Below, piece after piece: positions 15,416-37,132 of a stretch of 64,000 bases of DNA. Position 1 is the stretch's first letter. Every line of letters begins with the position of its first letter. Origin of the DNA: Winogradskyella alexanderae (GTDB lineage Bacteria; Bacteroidota; Bacteroidia; Flavobacteriales; Flavobacteriaceae); assembly GCF_020166335.1 (NCBI RefSeq), contig NZ_JAIUJR010000010.1:1-64000 (forward strand), read 5' to 3'. The position numbers and the translations under genes were made by a program. The notes beneath the pieces are model-generated. The model searched no databases and was not told the origin of the DNA. It worked only from the letters and a program-made list of their open reading frames with translations.

Positions 15416-15723
15416 ATCCATATATTTAAGTAAGCTCGTTTTAATTTAGATTCGCAATATAACAATTAAAGGTAAACTGACAACTTTTTTTTCAGACAAA
15501 ATGCTAAAAAATGTGCATTTCATCCCTTTTTTTTAACAATATAACGGATTTTTGGCCGTTTTTCGAGTGTTTATTGCTCTCTAATAACGAGCCTAAAAAT
15601 AAAATATTGTTGTATTTTTGAAATAAAAATTTGCACATCATAATAAGTCAAAAATCAAGGCGTTATTTTACTAAAATTGCTACAAAAGACTGGGTTTGGT
15701 CTGGACTTAAAAGAAACAGATTA
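15416..15723. promoter_or_regulatory. Divergent gldJ/porU intergenic region
   Basis: About 300 bases without a supported gene. For gldJ, the minus strand shows TTG (15481-15483), 19 bases, then TATATTGC (15454-15461), a one-mismatch promoter. For porU, the plus strand shows TATTTTTG at 15613-15620 without a clear -33 partner. A weak hairpin AACGG/CCGTT (15543-15560) with following T residues lies between them. The frame in front of porU is open from TTG 15631 but the extra 31 residues are not signal-peptide-like. Confidence 0.4.
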
Positions 15724-18700
15724 ATGAAATATATCTTTACGCTTCTAATTTTTAACCTTTTTGTTTTTGCATTCGGACAACAAAAGGACTTCCAAATCCT
15801 TTGGGAAAATTCTAAATTTTTAGAGAATGACTTTGGAAAAATTAAAGTGCCTGGATTTGACGAAAAGCATTTTAGTTACACAACAGAAAAGGGATTGGTA
15901 TTTTTTGCACAATGGAATAATAATGCAGGGCGTATTAACGAAAAGTCTGTTGTGTTGTCCAATGTAAATTACAGCAGCATAACACCAAGTGAGCTTTTTG
16001 ATCTAAACAAAAATCTAATTCCAAAAGAACCAATATTAAAGATATATAACACAAGTGCTAGAGGTAAAAGAGGGGCCTATATTGAAATATCTCCTATAGT
16101 AAATCAAAATGGGGTTTATAAAAAAATTACTTCTTTTTCTATTAGTTATTCATCAAATACGGGATCGACTAGTTTTAGAGGAAAAAGGTTAAGTGAAATT
16201 ACTAGCTCCGTTTTGAGCAGTGGAGAATGGTATCGTTTTTATATAGATAAATCCGGAATATTTCAGCTTACAAAAAGCTTTTTAAGCAGTTTGGGTATCA
16301 ATACTAATGCAGTAGATCCACGCACCATAAAAATTTATGGTAACGGTGGTAGGATGTTACCACTTTCCAATGCAGAAAACTATCCATTTGATGTTGTAGA
16401 GAATACTATAAAATTTGTCGGCGAGGAGGATGGAAGCTTTGACAATGGGGACTTTATACTTTTTTATGGCGAAGGTCCTACAACCTATAGTGAGGAAAGC
16501 AATACCAATTTAAACCTATATGTGGACAAGACTTATTATTATGTCAATATAAGTTCTGGTAACGGCAAACGTATACAATCAATGCCAGTAATAAATCAGC
16601 CTGCTGATGTTGAAGTTACTACATTTCAGGATTATCAGTTCTATGAAATTGACGAATATAATCTGGCTAAGCTTGGGAGAAGATGGTTTGGAGATCGGTT
16701 TGATATAGAAAACCAGAAAACCTACAATTTTAATTTTCCAAATCATGTTGCAAGTGAACCTGCAAGATTCAATGTGGCAGTAGGTGCTGTGTCTGAAACA
16801 GAAACCTCAATGATTGTAACTGTAAATGGTAATCAAGTATCAACCTTAAACTTAAATGCCATAACAGAGGGGTCTATACTTGGGTCATCTGCTAGTTTTG
16901 TAGACGATATAAACATCTCTTCAGATAATGTTACTGTAGTTCTTGACTATATAAATAACGGAAATCCTTCCGCTAATGGTTATCTTGATTATATTAATAT
17001 AGAGGCAACAAGACAGTTGTCTTATGTAGGCGATCAACTCAGGTTTATGAATCGAAATGTTGCAAATTCGCCAGGTATAGCACAATATAACATTTCGAAC
17101 ACAGCTTCGATTCGTGAGGTTTGGGATATTACAGACCGATTTAATGTTCAAAATTTAATTAATACTGAAGCTTCAAGCACCATTAGTTTTAAAGCGCCAG
17201 CTGGAGAATTAAGAAATTACATTGCTTTTGCATACTCAGACGTACATCAACCAAAAAAGGACGCAATTTCTACTGTTGCTAATCAAGATTTAAAAGGAAC
17301 TATTTTTAATGGTGCTTCACAGGGTATAGATTACATAATTTTGGCACCTACACAATTTGTTTCCCAAGCAGAACGTCTTGCTCAAATTAATAGAGATCAA
17401 AATGGACTGGTTGTAAAGGTAGTTGATCTACAGGCTATATATAATGAATTTAGCACTGGAAGTCAGGATATTGCAGCGCTGAGAAATTTTGTAAAATACG
17501 TTTATGATGTTTCCCTAAATCCTAATAACGGTTATGAAAGGCAGTTAAAGTACTTGTGTCTATTCGGGGATGGATCTTATGATTACAAAGACAGATTAAA
17601 TAACAATACCAATCTCGTACCTTCATGGTATACCAATAGTAGTTTTAGCCTAACAAGTTCTTTCGTTTCAGATGATTTTTATTGTATGATGGATGACAAC
17701 GAAGGTACAATGGGTGGTGGTGACAGAATGGATATTGCAGTAGGTAGAATTTTGGCAGAAGACGTGCAACGTGCCAAGGAAATGGTAGATAAAATTGAAT
17801 CATACTATCAGCCTGATGCCTTCGGTAGTTGGAGGAATAATCTATTGTTAATAAGTGACGACGTTGATATTGCTTGGGAGAAGATTCTTCAAGAAACAAC
17901 AGATGGCATTGGTACGACAGTTGAAGCAGAAAAACCATTTATGAATGTTGTGAAAATTCACACTGATGCATTTCAGCAAGAGGCATCGTCTGCAGGGAAT
18001 AGATATCCACAAGTAAATGAAGCGATTAAAGATGCTATTGAAGTCGGAGCCTTGGTTGTAAATTATTTTGGACATGGCGGTGAAGATGGTTTGGCCAAGG
18101 AGCGAATATTTGATAAGAATGACGCACAAGAGATAAATAACATTTGTAAGTTTAACCTATTTGTAACGGTTACTTGTGAATACACAAAATTTGATGATCC
18201 AGGTAGGCCTACCGCTGGGGAATACACCTTTTGGAATAAGAATGGTGGTGCTACAGCACTGATTACAACAACAAGACAAATATTTGTGACAGTTGGTGTT
18301 TCATACAATGAGGTATTAGATGATTACCTTTTTGCTTTTGGATCTAATGACTACCCAAGTATTGGAGAAGCCTTGAGATTAACAAAAACAGATGATAATA
18401 TATCTGGAATTAGCCAGAAACGTCTTGTTTTTCTTATCGGTGACCCTGCTATGAAACTTGCCTTTCCAAAACCCGACATAAGGTTAACACAAGTTAATGA
18501 TGTGCCTATTTCACAACCAATCGATACCTTAAAAGCACTGAGCTATGCTAAGTTAGCTGGAGAAGTCGTAGATACTAATGGCAATGTGGTGACCAATTTC
18601 AATGGCACATTAACAGCTACGGTTTTTGACAAGCCAATTGAAAGACAAACATTAGCTAACGACGGTATAACTGAGAACGGACAACAGATAAAACTAGACT

Positions 18701-19581
18701 TTACGACACTAGGAGAAGTCTTATTCAAAGGTCAGGCAAGTATAGAAAATGGCCAGTTTGAATTTGATTTTATTGTTCCAAGAGATATCGGAATCCCAGT
18801 TGGAAACGGAAAAGTTAGCTTCTATGCTCAAAATACCAATTCCACGACAGATAAGGCAGGCTCTAATTTTGATATCAGTATAGGAGGTATCAACGAAAAT
18901 GCACCAGAGGATAATGTTGGCCCAGTTATAAATCTATTCATGAATGACGAAAATTTTGTTTCAGGAGGTATCACCAACGAATCTCCCACGTTACTAGTTA
19001 AGCTACAGGACGAAAATGGGATTAATACTGCCAGTGGAATAGGTCATGACATAACGGCGATCCTAGATGGTGATGAAACCAATCCGTTTGTTTTAAATGA
19101 TTATTACCAAGCAAATGTAGATGACTACACTAATGGTGTTGTATCCTACGCCTTTCGCGATTTAGAACCTGGAATTCATACTTTAACCTTAAAAGCTTGG
19201 GATGTCTATAACAATTCATCAACTGCAGAAATTCTTTTTAATGTATTTGATAAAGATGAAGAGCTTGTAATTGATAATGTACTCAATTATCCAAATCCGT
19301 TCGTGAACTACACGGAATTTTGGTTTAATCATAACAGTGCGGAACCACTGGATATTTCTGTTCAGATTTTTACTGTATCAGGAAAATTAGTTAGAACATT
19401 AAACGGACAAACCTCCAGCGGCAACAAAGGCGTAAGCTCACTATCAAAGGATATTGTGTGGGATGGAAGAGACGATTTTGGCGATAAAATTGGAAAAGGT
19501 GTATACGTTTATAAACTAAAAGTGAAATCTAACCGTTTAAATAAGCAAGTTGAAAAAATTCAAAAACTTGTTATACTCTAA
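15724..19581 (+). CDS. porU: Type IX secretion system sortase PorU
   Basis: Cell-surface cysteine peptidase (family C25, gingipain-like) that removes C-terminal sorting domains from type IX cargo and attaches the cargo to the surface. Starting at ATG 15724 gives 1285 residues with a clear signal peptide (MKYIFTLLIFNLFVFAFGQQ). The C25 domain occupies about residues 530-920; the catalytic pair appears as His784 in YFGHGGEDG and Cys818 in VTVTCEYTKF. The C-terminus holds a FlgD-like/Por-type beta domain with NYPNPF and GVYVYKLKVK. porV begins 62 bases downstream; the two proteins act together at the outer membrane. Confidence 0.95.
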   Translation: MKYIFTLLIFNLFVFAFGQQKDFQILWENSKFLENDFGKIKVPGFDEKHFSYTTEKGLVFFAQWNNNAGRINEKSVVLSNVNYSSITPSELFDLNKNLIPKEPILKIYNTSARGKRGAYIEISPIVNQNGVYKKITSFSISYSSNTGSTSFRGKRLSEITSSVLSSGEWYRFYIDKSGIFQLTKSFLSSLGINTNAVDPRTIKIYGNGGRMLPLSNAENYPFDVVENTIKFVGEEDGSFDNGDFILFYGEGPTTYSEESNTNLNLYVDKTYYYVNISSGNGKRIQSMPVINQPADVEVTTFQDYQFYEIDEYNLAKLGRRWFGDRFDIENQKTYNFNFPNHVASEPARFNVAVGAVSETETSMIVTVNGNQVSTLNLNAITEGSILGSSASFVDDINISSDNVTVVLDYINNGNPSANGYLDYINIEATRQLSYVGDQLRFMNRNVANSPGIAQYNISNTASIREVWDITDRFNVQNLINTEASSTISFKAPAGELRNYIAFAYSDVHQPKKDAISTVANQDLKGTIFNGASQGIDYIILAPTQFVSQAERLAQINRDQNGLVVKVVDLQAIYNEFSTGSQDIAALRNFVKYVYDVSLNPNNGYERQLKYLCLFGDGSYDYKDRLNNNTNLVPSWYTNSSFSLTSSFVSDDFYCMMDDNEGTMGGGDRMDIAVGRILAEDVQRAKEMVDKIESYYQPDAFGSWRNNLLLISDDVDIAWEKILQETTDGIGTTVEAEKPFMNVVKIHTDAFQQEASSAGNRYPQVNEAIKDAIEVGALVVNYFGHGGEDGLAKERIFDKNDAQEINNICKFNLFVTVTCEYTKFDDPGRPTAGEYTFWNKNGGATALITTTRQIFVTVGVSYNEVLDDYLFAFGSNDYPSIGEALRLTKTDDNISGISQKRLVFLIGDPAMKLAFPKPDIRLTQVNDVPISQPIDTLKALSYAKLAGEVVDTNGNVVTNFNGTLTATVFDKPIERQTLANDGITENGQQIKLDFTTLGEVLFKGQASIENGQFEFDFIVPRDIGIPVGNGKVSFYAQNTNSTTDKAGSNFDISIGGINENAPEDNVGPVINLFMNDENFVSGGITNESPTLLVKLQDENGINTASGIGHDITAILDGDETNPFVLNDYYQANVDDYTNGVVSYAFRDLEPGIHTLTLKAWDVYNNSSTAEILFNVFDKDEELVIDNVLNYPNPFVNYTEFWFNHNSAEPLDISVQIFTVSGKLVRTLNGQTSSGNKGVSSLSKDIVWDGRDDFGDKIGKGVYVYKLKVKSNRLNKQVEKIQKLVIL

Positions 19582-19643: not shown

Positions 19644-20873
19644 ATGAAGAATTACGTACTAACCCTAATTGCTTTTGCAACACTTAACCTAACATTTGGT
19701 CAAGAAACAATAACGTTTCCAGATCAATCTTCTGTAATAACAACCGGTCTTCCTTTTATGCTTGTAGCTCCAGACGCGAGATCGGCATCCATGGGAGATA
19801 TGGGAGTAGCTACTTCGGTAGATGGCTTCTCACAACAATACAATCCTGCCAAATATGCCTTTTCAGAGGCAAAATCTGGTTTAAGTGTTAGTTTTACACC
19901 ATATTTAACACGATTAGTTAATGATATATCGTTAAGTTATGCTACCTACTTTAATAGAATCAACGAGTACAGTGCAGTTTCTGCAAGTGTTAAGTATTTT
20001 TCCTTAGGAGAGATTGTCCTAACGCAAGATGCCAACGATCCAGGCGTTGCTGTTAAACCAAACGAATATGCAATTGATGTTGCCTATGCATTAAGACTTG
20101 GGGAGCAGTTTTCAATGGCAGTCGCTCTTAGATATTTACGATCTGCCTTGCGAATAGATACTGTAGATCCAAATGCCAATCCAGGAAGTACATTTGGTGC
20201 AGACATCACAGGCTATTACCAAAGTGAGGAAGAAGCATACAATGATTTTAATGGAAGATGGAGAATGGGCTTTGCCATTCAAAATTTAGGTCCAAAGTTT
20301 AGGTATGATGATGGTGGAGAAGAAGTGTTTCAGCCAACAAATTTGAGGTTGGGTGCAGGATTCGATTTTATATTTGATGAATACAATAAACTTGGTTTAA
20401 CAGCTGAAGTTTCCAAATATTTAGTGCCAACTCCACCAAAATTCGGATTTGTGGATACAAACGGAGATGGTGAACAAACTGTGGACGACCCAAGTACTCC
20501 AGATATTGATGAAGGTGAACCAACAATTATTACCGAAGGGCAAGATAATAACGTAAGTTTTATAAATGGTATTTTTCAATCCTTCGGAGACGCACCAGGA
20601 GGTTTTAGCGAAGAGCTAAGAGAGTTTGTTTGGTCTCTTGGCGCAGAATATACATATCAGGATAGTTTTGCATTTAGAGCAGGTTACTTTAATGAGGCCG
20701 ATGACAAAGGCGCACGTAAGTTTTTTGCTCTTGGAGCTGGCTTTAAGTATACAACTATCAATATAGATCTTTCATATTTGTTCTCCGCTTCGCGTGTGCA
20801 GAGCCCTCTTGAAAACACTTTGAGATTCTCACTAACATTTAATTTTGGAGATGGTGAGTATAACGAATATTAG
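19644..20873 (+). CDS. porV: Type IX secretion outer membrane protein PorV (LptO)
   Basis: An outer-membrane beta-barrel of the FadL-like family that shuttles type IX cargo from the translocon to the PorU attachment complex. The 409 residues start with a signal peptide ending at TFGQ and continue with the family N-terminus (TGLPFMLVAPDARSASMGD, GVATSVDGFSQQYNPAKYAF), many alternating beta strands and a final strand NTLRFSLTFNF. An Asp/Glu-rich insert (about residues 270-300: DTNGDGEQTVDD) looks like a calcium-binding loop. It has its own predicted promoter and is followed by a terminator. Confidence 0.95.
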   Translation: MKNYVLTLIAFATLNLTFGQETITFPDQSSVITTGLPFMLVAPDARSASMGDMGVATSVDGFSQQYNPAKYAFSEAKSGLSVSFTPYLTRLVNDISLSYATYFNRINEYSAVSASVKYFSLGEIVLTQDANDPGVAVKPNEYAIDVAYALRLGEQFSMAVALRYLRSALRIDTVDPNANPGSTFGADITGYYQSEEEAYNDFNGRWRMGFAIQNLGPKFRYDDGGEEVFQPTNLRLGAGFDFIFDEYNKLGLTAEVSKYLVPTPPKFGFVDTNGDGEQTVDDPSTPDIDEGEPTIITEGQDNNVSFINGIFQSFGDAPGGFSEELREFVWSLGAEYTYQDSFAFRAGYFNEADDKGARKFFALGAGFKYTTINIDLSYLFSASRVQSPLENTLRFSLTFNFGDGEYNEY

Positions 20874-26632: not shown

Positions 26633-29600
26633 ATGGGAAGAATTTTACCCCTAAAAATATCTTCTTTCATTTTCACTATAGTGTGCTTCTCAACCGGTAT
26701 TATATGTGGGCAGACTTTTGACAGAGTTGAGAATACAGTAGGTTTGGGTATCCTTAGAGAAAATAATGGAGTTGCCGTGGCTGACTATGACGGAGACAAT
26801 GATCTCGATATTTTTGTTGTTGCAAATGCGGTTGAAAACCAAGATGATCTGTCCACTTTTAGTCGCTTGTTTAGAAATAATAATGATGGTTCATTTACCG
26901 ATGTTACAGAATTTGCTGGTTTGACCGATTTATTGACTTCAGAAGATGAAATACAAGAAACGTTTGCTCAACGAGGTTATAGGTTTGGCGCATCTTGGGG
27001 TGATTATAACAATGACGGTTTTCCGGATCTATTTTTAACCTATTCACTTAAAGTAGAACTTTGGAGGAATTTAGGGAATGGAACTTTTGCAAATGTTACT
27101 GGAATATCTGGTTTTCAAACGTCAAATGATTGTATTAATACTGGTGCAACATGGTTAGATTATAACAATGACGGGTTCCTAGATATTTATTTTACTGACT
27201 GGAATGAGTGTAATTCTAATTCGTTTTATAGAAATAATGGCAATGGTACATTTACTAATACCACGGCAGAACTTGGTCTTACTGAAGTTGATTCTAACTA
27301 TAGTTATACTACACTACCATTTGATGTTAATAATGATGGGTGGATTGATTTGATTGTTACCAATGATTTTGAAGATGCTAACTACCTTTATATTAATCAA
27401 TCCGGCACTGGTTTTGTTGAAGATGCAGCCACGTACGGTCTTAATAATATGATTGATGATATGGCTGTGGCAATAAGTGATTTTGATTTAGATCAGGATT
27501 TCGATTTTTTTGTAACGGGAATTGATGAAAATTCTTTGTTAGAAAACAACGGATCAAATAGCTTTACCGATACAGCTACCAACTATGGAATAGAACAAAC
27601 TGGTTGGGCCTGGGGAGCTCGATTTGCTGATTTTGATTTGGACGGTGATGAGGATTTGTTTGTGGCCAATGGTTATGAATTTGAGACTAGAGGAGCTGAG
27701 GCAAATAAGTATTTCAGGAATTTGCACAGTCAAGGACAAACTGTCTTTGAAGATGCATCAGTAATTTCTGGATTAAACGATCAAACTGAAAGTGTTGAAG
27801 CATTAGATTTTGATTATGACAATGATGGTGATTTAGACTTAATAGTTACCAATGGTGATGGCTCAGTTTTATTCTATGAAAACAAAATCCTTAATTTTGA
27901 TGATGTTTCTCCAGCTTCAAACTGGTTTAAAATTCAGCTTGAGGGTACGGTTTCCAATCGTGATGCAATTGGTACCACAATTACATTAACAACTTCAACG
28001 GGCACATTAAAGCGCTATTACTCCGGTGTCGGTTTTATGAGTCAAAGTCTACAAGGTGTTCACTTTGGTCTAGGCGATGCAACTAATATTACCGAATTAG
28101 AAATTAAATGGCCTTCTGGGCTTATCGAAACCTTTAATTCTATTTCAACCAATATTACAATTAAAGTAACTGAAGGCCAAGGTTATGAGATTCTAGATGT
28201 AGAACCAAGTCAAAAGGTCTATGGGTGTACAGATCCTGTTTCTTGCAACTACAATCCGGATGCAACTTTAGATGATGGTTCATGCACCTATTTAGAGGCT
28301 CAAAGTATTGTTGGGCCAACAGTATCTTCGTTTTTAAAAACTGAGACTTATAGCTATGCTATAGCCAATGAATCAACAGCGCAATGGCAAGTGGTTGGTG
28401 GTGAAATTCTTAATGGTCAAGGCACAAGCACTATAACTGTAAGCTGGGGAATAGAAGAGGCAGGTTTCGTTTCTGTTATTGAATCCGATAGCCAGTGTTC
28501 AAGTTTACAAGCTTCGATAAATGTGGAATTGAATACAGATGAATTACCAGAGAATATATCTATTGCAAGATTATGGAATGAAGTTTTGTTAGATGCTATA
28601 AGAGGGGATTTTGCAAGGCCAACTGTTCATGCAAGAAACCTATTTCATACAAGTGTTGCCATGTACGATATCTGGGCTATTTATGATGAGGTTGCAGAAC
28701 CTTATTTAATTGGTAACACTGTTAATGATTTTAACAGTGAACTCGAAGATTTTATTTTAATTGACAGTAAAGAGGAATCTTTAAAACAAGCCATAAGCTA
28801 TGCAATGTATCGCATATTAACGCACCGATTCCAAAATTCTCCAAGTGCAGAAACAACTCAAGCACGTTTTGATTTATTAATGAACAAATTAGGCTATGAT
28901 ACAAGTTATACATCATTGCTTTATGAATTTGGTAATGCTGCAGCATTGGGTAACTATGTTGCCCAGACTATAATAGATTATGGTTTACAAGATGGTTCAA
29001 GAGAGGCAACAGGTTATGATAATGCATATTATGAACCAGTAAATGCACCTTATGCATTAGATTCTAATGATAACCCACCAATTAATGACCCTAATAGATG
29101 GCAACCTCTTGGATTAGATACTTTTATTGACCAAGGTGGTAATCTAGTAGATGGCAATGTACCTCCTTTTTTAAGTCCAGAATGGGGAAATGTCTTTTCA
29201 TTTGCTTTAAAAGAAGAGGACAAGGTTACATACGAAAGAGATGGCAACCAATATCATGTGTTCCATGATCCCTCGGATCCACCATATATAAGTTTAACGG
29301 AAAATAACGTAATGAGCGATGCTTACAAATGGGGCTTTACAATGGTATCTGTATGGCAAGCACATTTAGATCCGAGTGATGGCGTAATGTGGGATATATC
29401 TCCAAATTCAATTGGAAATGTTGATATTAGTACATTTCCAACTGAGTATACAGATTATCCGGATTTTTATGATTTCTTTGAAGGAGGAAGTGTCAGTGCA
29501 GGCCACACTGTAAATCCGTTTACAGGAAATCCATACGAAATCAACATGGTGCCACGGGGTGATTATGGAAGAGTGCTTGCAGAGTTCTGGGCAGACGGTC

Positions 29601-30670
29601 CTGATTCGGAAACACCACCTGGTCATTGGTTTACCATTTTGAATTATGTAAATGATCATCCTAATTTTGAAAAACGTTTTCAAGGGGAAGGAGAAGTGTT
29701 AGATGCGCTCGAATGGGACGTCAAAGCATACTTTATTCTGGGAGGTGGTATGCATGATGCTGCAATCTCCGCATGGAGTGTTAAAGGATGGTATGATTAC
29801 ATACGCCCAATATCTGCAATTCGATCCATGGCAGAACGTGGTCAGAGTACTGATCCTACATTAGACAATTACGATGTTTCAGGGATCCCATTAATAGATG
29901 GTTATATTGAAGTTATTGAGGAAGGTGATCCTTTGGCTGGCTTCGTAAATCAATACGTTGGGCAAATTAAACTCTACACTTGGAAAGGTCACGATTTCAT
30001 CGAAGATACAGAGATAGACCAAGCGGGAGTTGGTTGGATAAGGGCTTCAGATTGGTATCCATACCAAAGGCCAACTTTTGTTACACCACCATTTGCTGGT
30101 TATGTTTCAGGACATTCAACTTATTCTCGTGCGGCGGCAGAACTGTTAACAATGATGACAGGTAGCGAATATTTTCCAGGAGGACTCGGTGAGTTTGTCG
30201 CCAAGGCCAATGAGTTCTTGGTATTTGAAGAAGGTCCTTCAGTAGATGTTGTATTACAATGGGCAACATACAGAGATGCTTCTGATCAAACTAGTTTAAG
30301 TAGGATTTGGGGTGGTATTCATCCTCCGGCAGACGATATACCTGGAAGATTTATTGGCCAAGAAGTTGCTGAGGATGCTTTTACATTTGCAGTACCTTAT
30401 TTCCAAGGTTCTCTGGATATAGAGCAAGTAGAATCTATCGATTATTCAATTTATCCAAATCCTACTACCAATAAAGAGATTAATATTACAAACACAAATA
30501 GCACTGAAACCATTGAATTATTTGATATTAGAGGTCGTAAAATAAGTATTGACAATACGAGTTATGATGCAATAAACAATATTACTTCTATCCGAGTAAA
30601 TTCGGCAACACCAGGTCTTTATATGCTTAGTATAAACAATAATTCAAAGATGATAGTGGTAAAGAACTAG
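26633..30670 (+). CDS. Mosaic type IX cargo: FG-GAP/ASPIC repeats, vanadium haloperoxidase-like domain and sorting signal
   Basis: A 1345-residue secreted protein. After a signal peptide come FG-GAP/VCBS repeats (about 35-420) with Asp-rich loops such as DYDGDNDLDIF and DYNNDGFPDLF that should bind calcium. An ASPIC/UnbV-like segment (about 430-510) precedes a short Cys motif YGCTDPVSCNYNPDA. The C-terminal half is a PAP2/vanadium haloperoxidase-like domain: Lys1051 and Arg1058 in KGWYDYIRP, Ser1159-Gly1160-His1161 in GYVSGHSTYS, and Arg1224/His1230 in RIWGGIHPP, which are the expected vanadate/phosphate contacts. The last 80 residues (SIYPNPTTN ... GLYMLSINN) are a type A type IX sorting domain. 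Haloperoxidase versus phosphatase activity cannot be decided by reading. Confidence 0.88.
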   Translation: MGRILPLKISSFIFTIVCFSTGIICGQTFDRVENTVGLGILRENNGVAVADYDGDNDLDIFVVANAVENQDDLSTFSRLFRNNNDGSFTDVTEFAGLTDLLTSEDEIQETFAQRGYRFGASWGDYNNDGFPDLFLTYSLKVELWRNLGNGTFANVTGISGFQTSNDCINTGATWLDYNNDGFLDIYFTDWNECNSNSFYRNNGNGTFTNTTAELGLTEVDSNYSYTTLPFDVNNDGWIDLIVTNDFEDANYLYINQSGTGFVEDAATYGLNNMIDDMAVAISDFDLDQDFDFFVTGIDENSLLENNGSNSFTDTATNYGIEQTGWAWGARFADFDLDGDEDLFVANGYEFETRGAEANKYFRNLHSQGQTVFEDASVISGLNDQTESVEALDFDYDNDGDLDLIVTNGDGSVLFYENKILNFDDVSPASNWFKIQLEGTVSNRDAIGTTITLTTSTGTLKRYYSGVGFMSQSLQGVHFGLGDATNITELEIKWPSGLIETFNSISTNITIKVTEGQGYEILDVEPSQKVYGCTDPVSCNYNPDATLDDGSCTYLEAQSIVGPTVSSFLKTETYSYAIANESTAQWQVVGGEILNGQGTSTITVSWGIEEAGFVSVIESDSQCSSLQASINVELNTDELPENISIARLWNEVLLDAIRGDFARPTVHARNLFHTSVAMYDIWAIYDEVAEPYLIGNTVNDFNSELEDFILIDSKEESLKQAISYAMYRILTHRFQNSPSAETTQARFDLLMNKLGYDTSYTSLLYEFGNAAALGNYVAQTIIDYGLQDGSREATGYDNAYYEPVNAPYALDSNDNPPINDPNRWQPLGLDTFIDQGGNLVDGNVPPFLSPEWGNVFSFALKEEDKVTYERDGNQYHVFHDPSDPPYISLTENNVMSDAYKWGFTMVSVWQAHLDPSDGVMWDISPNSIGNVDISTFPTEYTDYPDFYDFFEGGSVSAGHTVNPFTGNPYEINMVPRGDYGRVLAEFWADGPDSETPPGHWFTILNYVNDHPNFEKRFQGEGEVLDALEWDVKAYFILGGGMHDAAISAWSVKGWYDYIRPISAIRSMAERGQSTDPTLDNYDVSGIPLIDGYIEVIEEGDPLAGFVNQYVGQIKLYTWKGHDFIEDTEIDQAGVGWIRASDWYPYQRPTFVTPPFAGYVSGHSTYSRAAAELLTMMTGSEYFPGGLGEFVAKANEFLVFEEGPSVDVVLQWATYRDASDQTSLSRIWGGIHPPADDIPGRFIGQEVAEDAFTFAVPYFQGSLDIEQVESIDYSIYPNPTTNKEINITNTNSTETIELFDIRGRKISIDNTSYDAINNITSIRVNSATPGLYMLSINNNSKMIVVKN

Positions 30671-35482: not shown

Positions 35483-37132
35483 ATGAAGAGAATCTTACCA
35501 TTACTCATTTGTTTTCTAATTTTGGCTTCATGTTTAGCTCAAAGTAAATCGGTAATTACAACACCAGAAAATTCAAGGCCAAAGTTAATTGTTGGTATTG
35601 TTGTAGACCAAATGCGCTATGATTATTTAACGCGATTTGAATCGAAATTTGGTGAGGGTGGATTTAAACGAATGATAAATGAAGGATTCAACTGTAAGAA
35701 TAATCATTTTAATTATGTGCCAACCTATACAGGGCCTGGTCATGCGTCGGTATATACGGGTACGACGCCAAAATATCATGGTATAATTAGTAATAATTGG
35801 TATGACAAAGAGATTAAAAGCGTAGTGTATTGTGCTGGCGATGAATCCGTAAATTCTATTGGGACTGAAAGCAACTCAGGTAAAATGTCACCACATAGAA
35901 TGCTTACCACTACTTTTGGAGATGAAAACAAATTGTTTACACAACATAGAGGTAAAACTATTGGTATCGCAATAAAAGACCGTGGCGCAATTTTGCCTGC
36001 AGGTCATACAGCAGATGCAGCATACTGGTTTCATGGAAAAGAAGAGGGTGTTTGGATTTCGAGCTCGTTTTACATGGAAGACTTACCAAATTGGGTGAAA
36101 AAGTTTAATTCATCTAAACAAGCCGAATCTTACTTTAAGGTTTGGGACACTTTTTATGACATTAATATTTATACTGAAAGTGGGCCAGACCAAAACACTT
36201 TTGAAGGCGGTTTTGAGGGTAAGGAGATGGCTACATTTCCATATGACTTGGATAGCTTAAAGGACAAAAACGGAGGCTTTGATATCTTAAAGCCAACTCC
36301 TTTTGGCAATAGTTTAACCACGGATTTTGCTTTAGCAGCGATTGAGGGGGAAGATTTAGGCGAAGACAATATAACCGATGTACTTACTGTGAGTTATTCA
36401 AGCACTGATTATGTAGGTCACAACTTCGGTGTAAACTCAAAAGAGGTACAAGATACTTATGTACGATTGGATAAGGATTTAGAGCGACTCTTTATCTTTT
36501 TGGATTTAAAAGTTGGTAAAGGTGAGTATACTGTATTTCTGACCTCAGACCATGGGGCGGTTGAGGTGCCTGCATATTTACAATCGGTAAATATTCCTGC
36601 GGGATATTTGAATTATAATGATAGGAAGCAACGATTTCAAAAGTTCTTGAATGACACATATGGTACAACTGAAATTGTGGAAAATGTAAGTAACAACCAG
36701 ATATTTTTCAACAAAGCAAAACTGAACGAGTTGGGCTTGAATATTCATGATGTTGAACAAGCCTTGGTAGACGAGCAAATTAGTTATCCGAATATTGCTA
36801 AAGTCTACACGGCTACTACTATGAATAGTACAAATTTCACTACTGGAATAGAGTCCTTATTACAAAACGGATTCAATCAAAAGCGCTCAGGTGATGTTAT
36901 TGTGGTAGACGATATTGCCCATATTGCCTATGGCCGTACTGGCTCTACACACGGAAGTGGATTAAATTATGACACCCATGTACCATTATTATTTATGGGA
37001 AAGGGTATACGGCACGGAGAAACATTAGAAAAGACGGTAATACCTGATATTGCGCCTACTATTTCGGCATTACTGGGTATAAGTTTTCCAAATGGTGCAA
37101 CAGGACAGCCCTTAGGTTTTCTTTTGGATTAG
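35483..37132 (+). CDS. PafA-like alkaline phosphatase family lipoprotein
   Basis: A phosphohydrolase of the alkaline phosphatase/nucleotide pyrophosphatase superfamily (type I phosphodiesterase fold). The N-terminal signal has a lipobox LASC with Cys17, so it is probably anchored in a membrane facing the periplasm or surface. The metal and nucleophile motifs are GIVVDQMRYDYL near residue 38, YTGPGHASVYTGTTP (nucleophile threonine) near 80, STDYVGHNFG near 310, LTSDHGAV near 355 and GSTHGSGLNYD near 485. Length (549) and motifs match the calcium- or zinc-dependent PafA group. It ends overlapping the convergent glycosyltransferase by 4 bases. Confidence 0.9.
   Translation: MKRILPLLICFLILASCLAQSKSVITTPENSRPKLIVGIVVDQMRYDYLTRFESKFGEGGFKRMINEGFNCKNNHFNYVPTYTGPGHASVYTGTTPKYHGIISNNWYDKEIKSVVYCAGDESVNSIGTESNSGKMSPHRMLTTTFGDENKLFTQHRGKTIGIAIKDRGAILPAGHTADAAYWFHGKEEGVWISSSFYMEDLPNWVKKFNSSKQAESYFKVWDTFYDINIYTESGPDQNTFEGGFEGKEMATFPYDLDSLKDKNGGFDILKPTPFGNSLTTDFALAAIEGEDLGEDNITDVLTVSYSSTDYVGHNFGVNSKEVQDTYVRLDKDLERLFIFLDLKVGKGEYTVFLTSDHGAVEVPAYLQSVNIPAGYLNYNDRKQRFQKFLNDTYGTTEIVENVSNNQIFFNKAKLNELGLNIHDVEQALVDEQISYPNIAKVYTATTMNSTNFTTGIESLLQNGFNQKRSGDVIVVDDIAHIAYGRTGSTHGSGLNYDTHVPLLFMGKGIRHGETLEKTVIPDIAPTISALLGISFPNGATGQPLGFLLD

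Follow-up and report, generated by a model that had tools for sequence, protein, structure and literature searches.

A CRTAC1-type propeller paired with a vanadium haloperoxidase-type domain in Winogradskyella alexanderae and its relatives

Results

One reading frame joins a propeller and a haloperoxidase-type domain

The window analysed here is a 64,000-nucleotide stretch of the Winogradskyella alexanderae genome (assembly GCF_020166335.1, contig NZ_JAIUJR010000010.1, positions 1 to 64,000). It carries an open reading frame (ORF) at 26633..30670 on the plus strand, with an ATG start and 1345 encoded residues, exactly as given in an earlier note made from the letters alone. That note described the product as a mosaic secreted protein with FG-GAP repeats, an ASPIC-like segment, a haloperoxidase-like domain and a type IX sorting domain. 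The main new result of our analysis is the pairing of propeller and haloperoxidase, in one chain here and as adjacent genes elsewhere. The features of the ORF are the following.

26633..30670, plus strand: whole ORF, with propeller, ASPIC domain, cysteine motif, PKD-like domain, haloperoxidase-type domain and type IX secretion system (T9SS) tail (Pfam, NCBIfam)
26633..26710, plus strand: predicted Sec-type signal peptide, residues 1-26, MGRILPLKISSFIFTIVCFSTGIICG, recognised by eye, cleavage point estimated
26711..27886, plus strand: FG-GAP beta-propeller, residues 27-418, with D-x-D-x-D-G calcium-type loops (Pfam FG-GAP_3, AlphaFold2)
27965..28159, plus strand: ASPIC/UnbV domain (UnbV_ASPIC), residues 445-509 (Pfam, 2e-17)
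28220..28285, plus strand: cysteine motif YGCTDPVSCNYNPDATLDDGSC, residues 530-551, shared by most of the long-form relatives checked
28337..28516, plus strand: PKD-like linker domain, residues 569-628 (Pfam PKD_6, 0.0004, below the cut-off)
28553..30406, plus strand: vanadium haloperoxidase (VHPO)-type domain of two helical bundles, residues 641-1258, about 615 residues (AlphaFold2, VIA-align, phmmer/hmmsearch)
29372..29560, plus strand: family insert 1, residues 914-976 (homologue alignment)
29783..29809, plus strand: putative vanadate motif 1, K1051-G-W-Y-D-Y-I-R1058-P, aligned with KX6RP of 4cit
29831..29956, plus strand: family insert 2, residues 1067-1108 (homologue alignment)
30092..30115, plus strand: putative vanadate motif 2, F1154-A-G-Y-V-S1159-G1160-H1161, with F, S, G and H invariant
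30299..30322, plus strand: putative vanadate motif 3, S-R1224-I-W-G-G-I-H1230, with R and H invariant, aligned with 4cit and 9l8x
30449..30658, plus strand: type A T9SS sorting domain (Por_Secre_tail), residues 1273-1342 (Pfam 1.6e-10, TIGR04183 3e-9)

Dozens of other genomes, sequenced independently and including those of Winogradskyella, Psychroserpens, Bizionia and Xanthomarina, encode full-length orthologues of 1340-1370 residues, and the chromosomal position is mostly conserved. The ORF is therefore real, and a chance frame or an assembly join is ruled out. The nearest loci, in Winogradskyella sp. KYW1333 and W. vincentii, match at 90-91% over the enzyme domain. In one other locus (L118, genome G150) the haloperoxidase frame is broken into two overlapping frames, by a frameshift or as a pseudogene.

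Pfam FG-GAP_3 matched seven stretches of the N-terminal half (1e-35), which with the UnbV_ASPIC match bears out the FG-GAP repeats and ASPIC-like segment. The PKD_6 match passes its cut-off slightly in a relative (L147). Over the enzyme domain, Pfam gave DUF6851 at residues 674-825 (7e-9) and VCPO_2nd at 5e-5, below its cut-off, and no PAP2 match at E 0.1. The word mosaic undersells a conserved architecture in which the propeller-haloperoxidase pairing recurs widely.

The N-terminal half is modelled as a CRTAC1-type propeller

AlphaFold2 returned a predicted local distance difference test score (pLDDT) of 91.6 for the N-terminal 614 mature residues. Propeller and ASPIC domain together matched the structure of CRTAC1 (entry 9etn) with a Z of 40.8 over 452 residues (root-mean-square deviation, rmsd, 2.4), ten units above the next fold, and CRTAC1 was also the only sequence match of this half in the PDB (phmmer, 1.6e-17). 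Pfam and structure agree on the CRTAC1-type order, FG-GAP propeller followed by ASPIC. According to the model, the N-terminal half is a CRTAC1-type propeller. The DxDxDG loops are visible in the propeller alignment and may bind Ca2+.

The enzyme domain has a two-bundle haloperoxidase fold

Sequence-only matches to solved VHPOs were weak (phmmer: XhnO11, entry 9l8x, 9.5e-8; NapH3, 6e-5; the Zobellia iodoperoxidase, 4e-4). A profile of the family and its relatives reached the vanadium iodoperoxidase (VIPO), NapH1, the Curvularia vanadium chloroperoxidase (VCPO) and algal vanadium bromoperoxidases. The AlphaFold2 model of the enzyme domain, built with 57 homologues, had a pLDDT of 91.7 and a predicted template modelling score of 0.93. 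Searched with Foldseek, its top 17 matches were all VHPOs (E 4.8e-20). In VIA-align, NapH1 scored Z 30.8 (434 residues, rmsd 2.5), XhnO11 30.4, NapH3 29.9, the Zobellia VIPO 28.4 (393 residues) and the Curvularia inaequalis VCPO 22.2 (425 residues). The VHPO alignments span model residues 1-621 and all whole-domain matches are VHPOs, whereas acid phosphatases fall to Z 12.6 over 201 of the 622 model residues, in the second bundle. Because the VHPO scores lie so far above those of the acid phosphatases (28-31 for bacterial VHPOs), the modelled domain is a two-bundle VHPO fold, and an ordinary PAP2 phosphatase, which the earlier note had named as the outcome that would undo its reading, was rejected. 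The haloperoxidase/PAP2-like assignment is thereby upheld by the structural comparison which that note had proposed.

The vanadate contacts are invariant and do not tell the halide

Conservation was followed in an alignment of 133 ingroup homologues and 8 outgroup sequences (141 in all). The seven putative vanadate contacts, K1051, R1058, S1159, G1160, H1161, R1224 and H1230, had been numbered correctly beforehand, and none of them varies in any sequence of the alignment (133/133 ingroup, 8/8 outgroup). W1048 and F1154 are likewise invariant throughout; we take them to match W350 and F397 of the Curvularia VCPO. The two inserts (residues 914-976 and 1067-1108) are conserved in the family and missing from the flavobacterial VHPO paralogues of about 500 residues. 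The histidine of motif 2, kept in 133/133 members of the window family, is Ser or Phe at the aligned position in NapH1, NapH3 and XhnO11, and is also missing from 9ptr; its replacement in NapH1 has also been reported (PMC13198595).

The residue after the SGH motif had been put forward as a guide to halide specificity. It is Ser in 141/141 aligned relatives and settles nothing. The Trp and Phe regarded as chloroperoxidase markers are no guide either, because the iodoperoxidase 4cit and every relative aligned carry both. Determinants of halide choice are largely unknown (PMC13198595), and reading the halide from residues was dropped.

Propellers were fused to the enzyme several times

A strong family match (E below 1e-100) was found in 84 of the 299 sampled Flavobacteriaceae genomes, and the family occurs mainly in marine taxa. 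Two metagenome-assembled genomes named 'Algicola' (L033, L037) carry the flavobacterial long form and synteny; L037 is drawn as Pseudoalteromonadaceae by the tree taxonomy, probably through a genus-name homonym. Three architectures were seen: the window-like long form, conserved in dozens of Flavobacteriaceae; a form of about 730 residues with signal peptide, enzyme and T9SS tail; and forms extended by further C-terminal domains. Two loci from Saprospiraceae and a related family (L058, L136) have copper-binding MopE-type metal motifs after the haloperoxidase domain.

Long forms cluster strongly in the enzyme tree without making up one group (6 changes, versus 24 in shuffles). In the propeller tree, the propellers of the long form make up a single clade (96/85). 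The propeller of a second fusion (L151) pairs there with a free-standing ASPIC protein (99/98), and that of a third (L144) is remote. Because these two fall outside the long-form clade, the trees indicate that FG-GAP propellers were fused to window-type enzymes at least three separate times. In genome G017 (L146, L155) an enzyme that lacks the propeller branches from among the long forms in the enzyme tree, and no free propeller is more closely related to the fused ones than the 618-residue protein of this genome; this split pair may have arisen by gene fission.

Unfused enzyme genes lie next to propeller genes

The neighbourhoods of unfused copies were examined outside Flavobacteriaceae, with 13 lineages entering the chance estimate. 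An ASPIC gene lay within 3 kb of the enzyme gene in 5 of the 13, versus 0.23 expected from per-genome ASPIC gene counts if genes are placed uniformly (approximate P 1e-6, or 1e-5 after leaving out the ASPIC-rich genome G541). The FG-GAP/ASPIC gene overlaps the enzyme gene by 4 bases in L200 and is 5 bases away in L203. In L191 and L196 (two copies) it immediately precedes the enzyme gene, in L190 it lies 0.7 kb upstream, and in L194 the two genes are divergent. On contigs from the first scan it follows 37 bases downstream (L062) or 1.2 kb downstream (L063). The only ASPIC gene of genome G388, and both of those in G480, adjoin the enzyme gene. That propeller and enzyme recur together, as neighbours or in one chain, suggests that the two function jointly.

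Nine short-form loci of one clade, each from a different genome (L173-L181), have the haloperoxidase gene head-to-head with kynureninase and other tryptophan/kynurenine catabolism genes, and eight of them have a gene for the methionine sulfoxide reductase MsrA within a few kb. With all nine loci coming from a single clade, we mention this only in passing.

In the open-access literature searched, no paper combining haloperoxidase with FG-GAP or ASPIC was found. Haloperoxidase with VCBS gave one match there, a Rhizobium genome paper.

A second haloperoxidase of the same genome has the same neighbour

The genome encodes a second VHPO, of 446 residues, which is an orthologue of the solved Zobellia iodoperoxidase 4cit (E 9e-210).

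L209:7390-8727, minus strand: iodoperoxidase-type VHPO gene, by orthology to 4cit; also L241 (the window's own genome, contig C44)

It lies 9 bases after the gene of a 1087-residue FG-GAP/ASPIC protein, which belongs to a run of three genes of this kind with lipoprotein-like products. The run lies downstream of SusD and SusC genes, with trehalase, GH32 and sugar transporter genes close by; in some other flavobacterial genomes GH13 and GH97 genes come after it. A haloperoxidase within a polysaccharide-utilisation-type locus was unexpected. The iodoperoxidase type occurs in 129 of the 299 Flavobacteriaceae genomes, and in 25 of the 30 flavobacterial genomes checked its gene is directly 3' of a same-strand FG-GAP/ASPIC gene; these are not 25 independent events, because one operon has spread vertically or laterally. 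Eight FG-GAP/ASPIC-type proteins were found in the window's genome, and four of these share a chain with a VHPO or are encoded in the same run as one.

Export and neighbouring genes

Two genes of the export machinery lie 6-11 kb upstream of the haloperoxidase gene.

15631..19581, plus strand: PorU, the T9SS sortase expected to process the tail (NF033707, 1400 bits)
19644..20873, plus strand: PorV, T9SS outer-membrane shuttle/channel component (NF033710, 518 bits)

SprA is encoded in the same genome. The type IX sorting domain of the earlier note stands, with its two profile matches and with PorU, PorV and SprA present. By sequence the protein has what defines a T9SS type A cargo: the tail by profile, the machinery in the genome and a signal peptide by eye. 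In sum, what the note observed is confirmed and its interpretation is partly supported.

The SprT-like and ManC neighbours of the window locus are conserved housekeeping genes. A HAD protein encoded upstream was considered as a haloacid dehalogenase and rejected, its best NCBIfam matches, below their cut-offs, pointing to the sugar-phosphatase type. A PafA-type alkaline phosphatase is encoded at 35483-37132 of the window (NF042991, 839 bits), 5 kb from the haloperoxidase gene.

Discussion

We consider it probable, with some reserve, that the window protein is a T9SS-exported, surface-bound or released VHPO with its own CRTAC1-type propeller, the fused form of a pair that is encoded adjacently elsewhere. 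Vanadate would sit between K1051, R1058, S1159, G1160 and R1224, with H1230 as its axial ligand and H1161 acting in acid-base catalysis. H2O2 would give peroxovanadate, and halide would be oxidised to diffusible hypohalous species near the surface. Through its propeller the enzyme would be docked on a partner or on a target macromolecule, either a glycan or a glycoprotein, and oxidant would then be produced at places where H2O2 and the target come together, algal surfaces being one example. We infer from model and sequence that the protein may produce reactive halogen species from a halide; halide oxidation, the halide used, the propeller ligand and the biological role are proposed with decreasing confidence, in that order. 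Candidate roles are dealing with H2O2 from algae, attacking competitors or signals, and modifying glycans.

More tentatively, and here we lean slightly against, CRTAC1-type FG-GAP/ASPIC propellers could be dedicated partners of VHPOs in Bacteroidota, acting as adaptors that bind the target, in an operon-borne two-part system for surface halogenation that was fused several times. The operon forms of this system would include the SusC/D-linked loci with iodoperoxidase, and the window protein would be one of the fusions.

Several points weigh against a propeller-guided haloperoxidase. The conserved neighbours of the window locus are housekeeping genes that offer no clue to function. The clustering of the seven contacts in one pocket would follow from the fold and the motif alignment, not from distances. 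Proteins of VHPO fold can act without halogenating, as NapH3 does in a rearrangement (entry 8cxl), and the apo form of VCPO is able to remove phosphate (entry 3bb0). As a surface module FG-GAP/ASPIC is promiscuous, and no propeller was found near the enzyme gene in the main Flavobacteriaceae short clades, so that it is not essential everywhere.

As an alternative, the propeller could be a general-purpose module for the surface or for secretion that has no particular link with haloperoxidases, and its fusions and adjacencies would then mirror only its abundance in Bacteroidota. FG-GAP/ASPIC proteins are indeed frequent, with up to 25 ASPIC matches per genome, and most Flavobacteriaceae short-form loci lack such a gene nearby. 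We find this explanation unlikely, as adjacency is about 20-fold over expectation, the sole or both ASPIC genes of two genomes (G388, G480) stand beside the enzyme, and in a distant second VHPO subfamily 25 of 30 genomes show this neighbour too. For the enzyme itself, a surface phosphatase of VHPO fold would hydrolyse phosphate esters at the same oxyanion site, so as to scavenge phosphorus, with no halide oxidation. The KX6RP/SGH/SRX5H site also occurs in acid phosphatases, whose alignment covers the second bundle (Z 12.6), a phosphate intermediate of apo-VCPO has been solved (3bb0), and the PafA gene is close by. The whole-domain fold is nevertheless that of a two-bundle VHPO, the Trp and Phe matched to W350 and F397 are invariant and the family is mainly marine, which makes a phosphatase rather improbable. 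We see a slimmer chance still for NapH-like chemistry, substrate-specific halogenation or a non-halogenating reaction on one defined organic substrate held in a pocket. The nearest solved folds are NapH1, XhnO11 and NapH3, and the two conserved inserts could form part of such a pocket; however, the motif-2 His missing from NapH1, NapH3, XhnO11 and 9ptr is kept in 133/133, as in VIPO, the gene lies outside any biosynthetic cluster, and it is improbable that an intracellular pathway would rely on an enzyme that is secreted.

Marine Flavobacteriaceae rank among the major colonisers of algae, and halogen flux from sea to air and the chemistry of algal surfaces are usually credited to algal haloperoxidases. 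A propeller partnership gives bacterial VHPOs with unknown targets a testable handle, the propeller ligand. Conversely, the pairing offers a possible function for bacterial FG-GAP/ASPIC proteins, whose role is largely unknown.

Comparison with known systems

With the Zobellia galactanivorans VIPO (4cit/4usz), the window domain shares a flavobacterial origin, the two-bundle fold, all seven contacts including the His of SGH, and T-P-P-F ahead of SGH. Identity is about 25%, as measured with the VIPO orthologue of the window's own genome, and VIPO, of 410-450 residues, has no in-chain propeller, T9SS tail or inserts 914-976 and 1067-1108. NapH1 (3w35/3w36), XhnO11 (9l8x) and NapH3 (8cxl) have the closest folds (Z 30-31), and the last two are the best phmmer sequence matches to the enzyme. 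Unlike the window protein, which is predicted to be exported and has the full site, these three are without the motif-2 His, and NapH1 and NapH3 serve biosynthetic pathways. The Curvularia inaequalis VCPO (1idq/1vnc family) shares fold (Z 22.2), site and the aligned Trp and Phe, but is only 18% identical over aligned residues and has no accessory domains. Class A acid phosphatases and PAP2 proteins share the second bundle and the oxyanion motifs; being single-bundle proteins of about 220 residues, they cover one third of the window domain. CRTAC1 (9etn) shares the FG-GAP propeller and ASPIC domain, but is an animal protein without an enzyme domain, whereas in the window protein the same propeller layout is joined to a VHPO-type domain in one chain.

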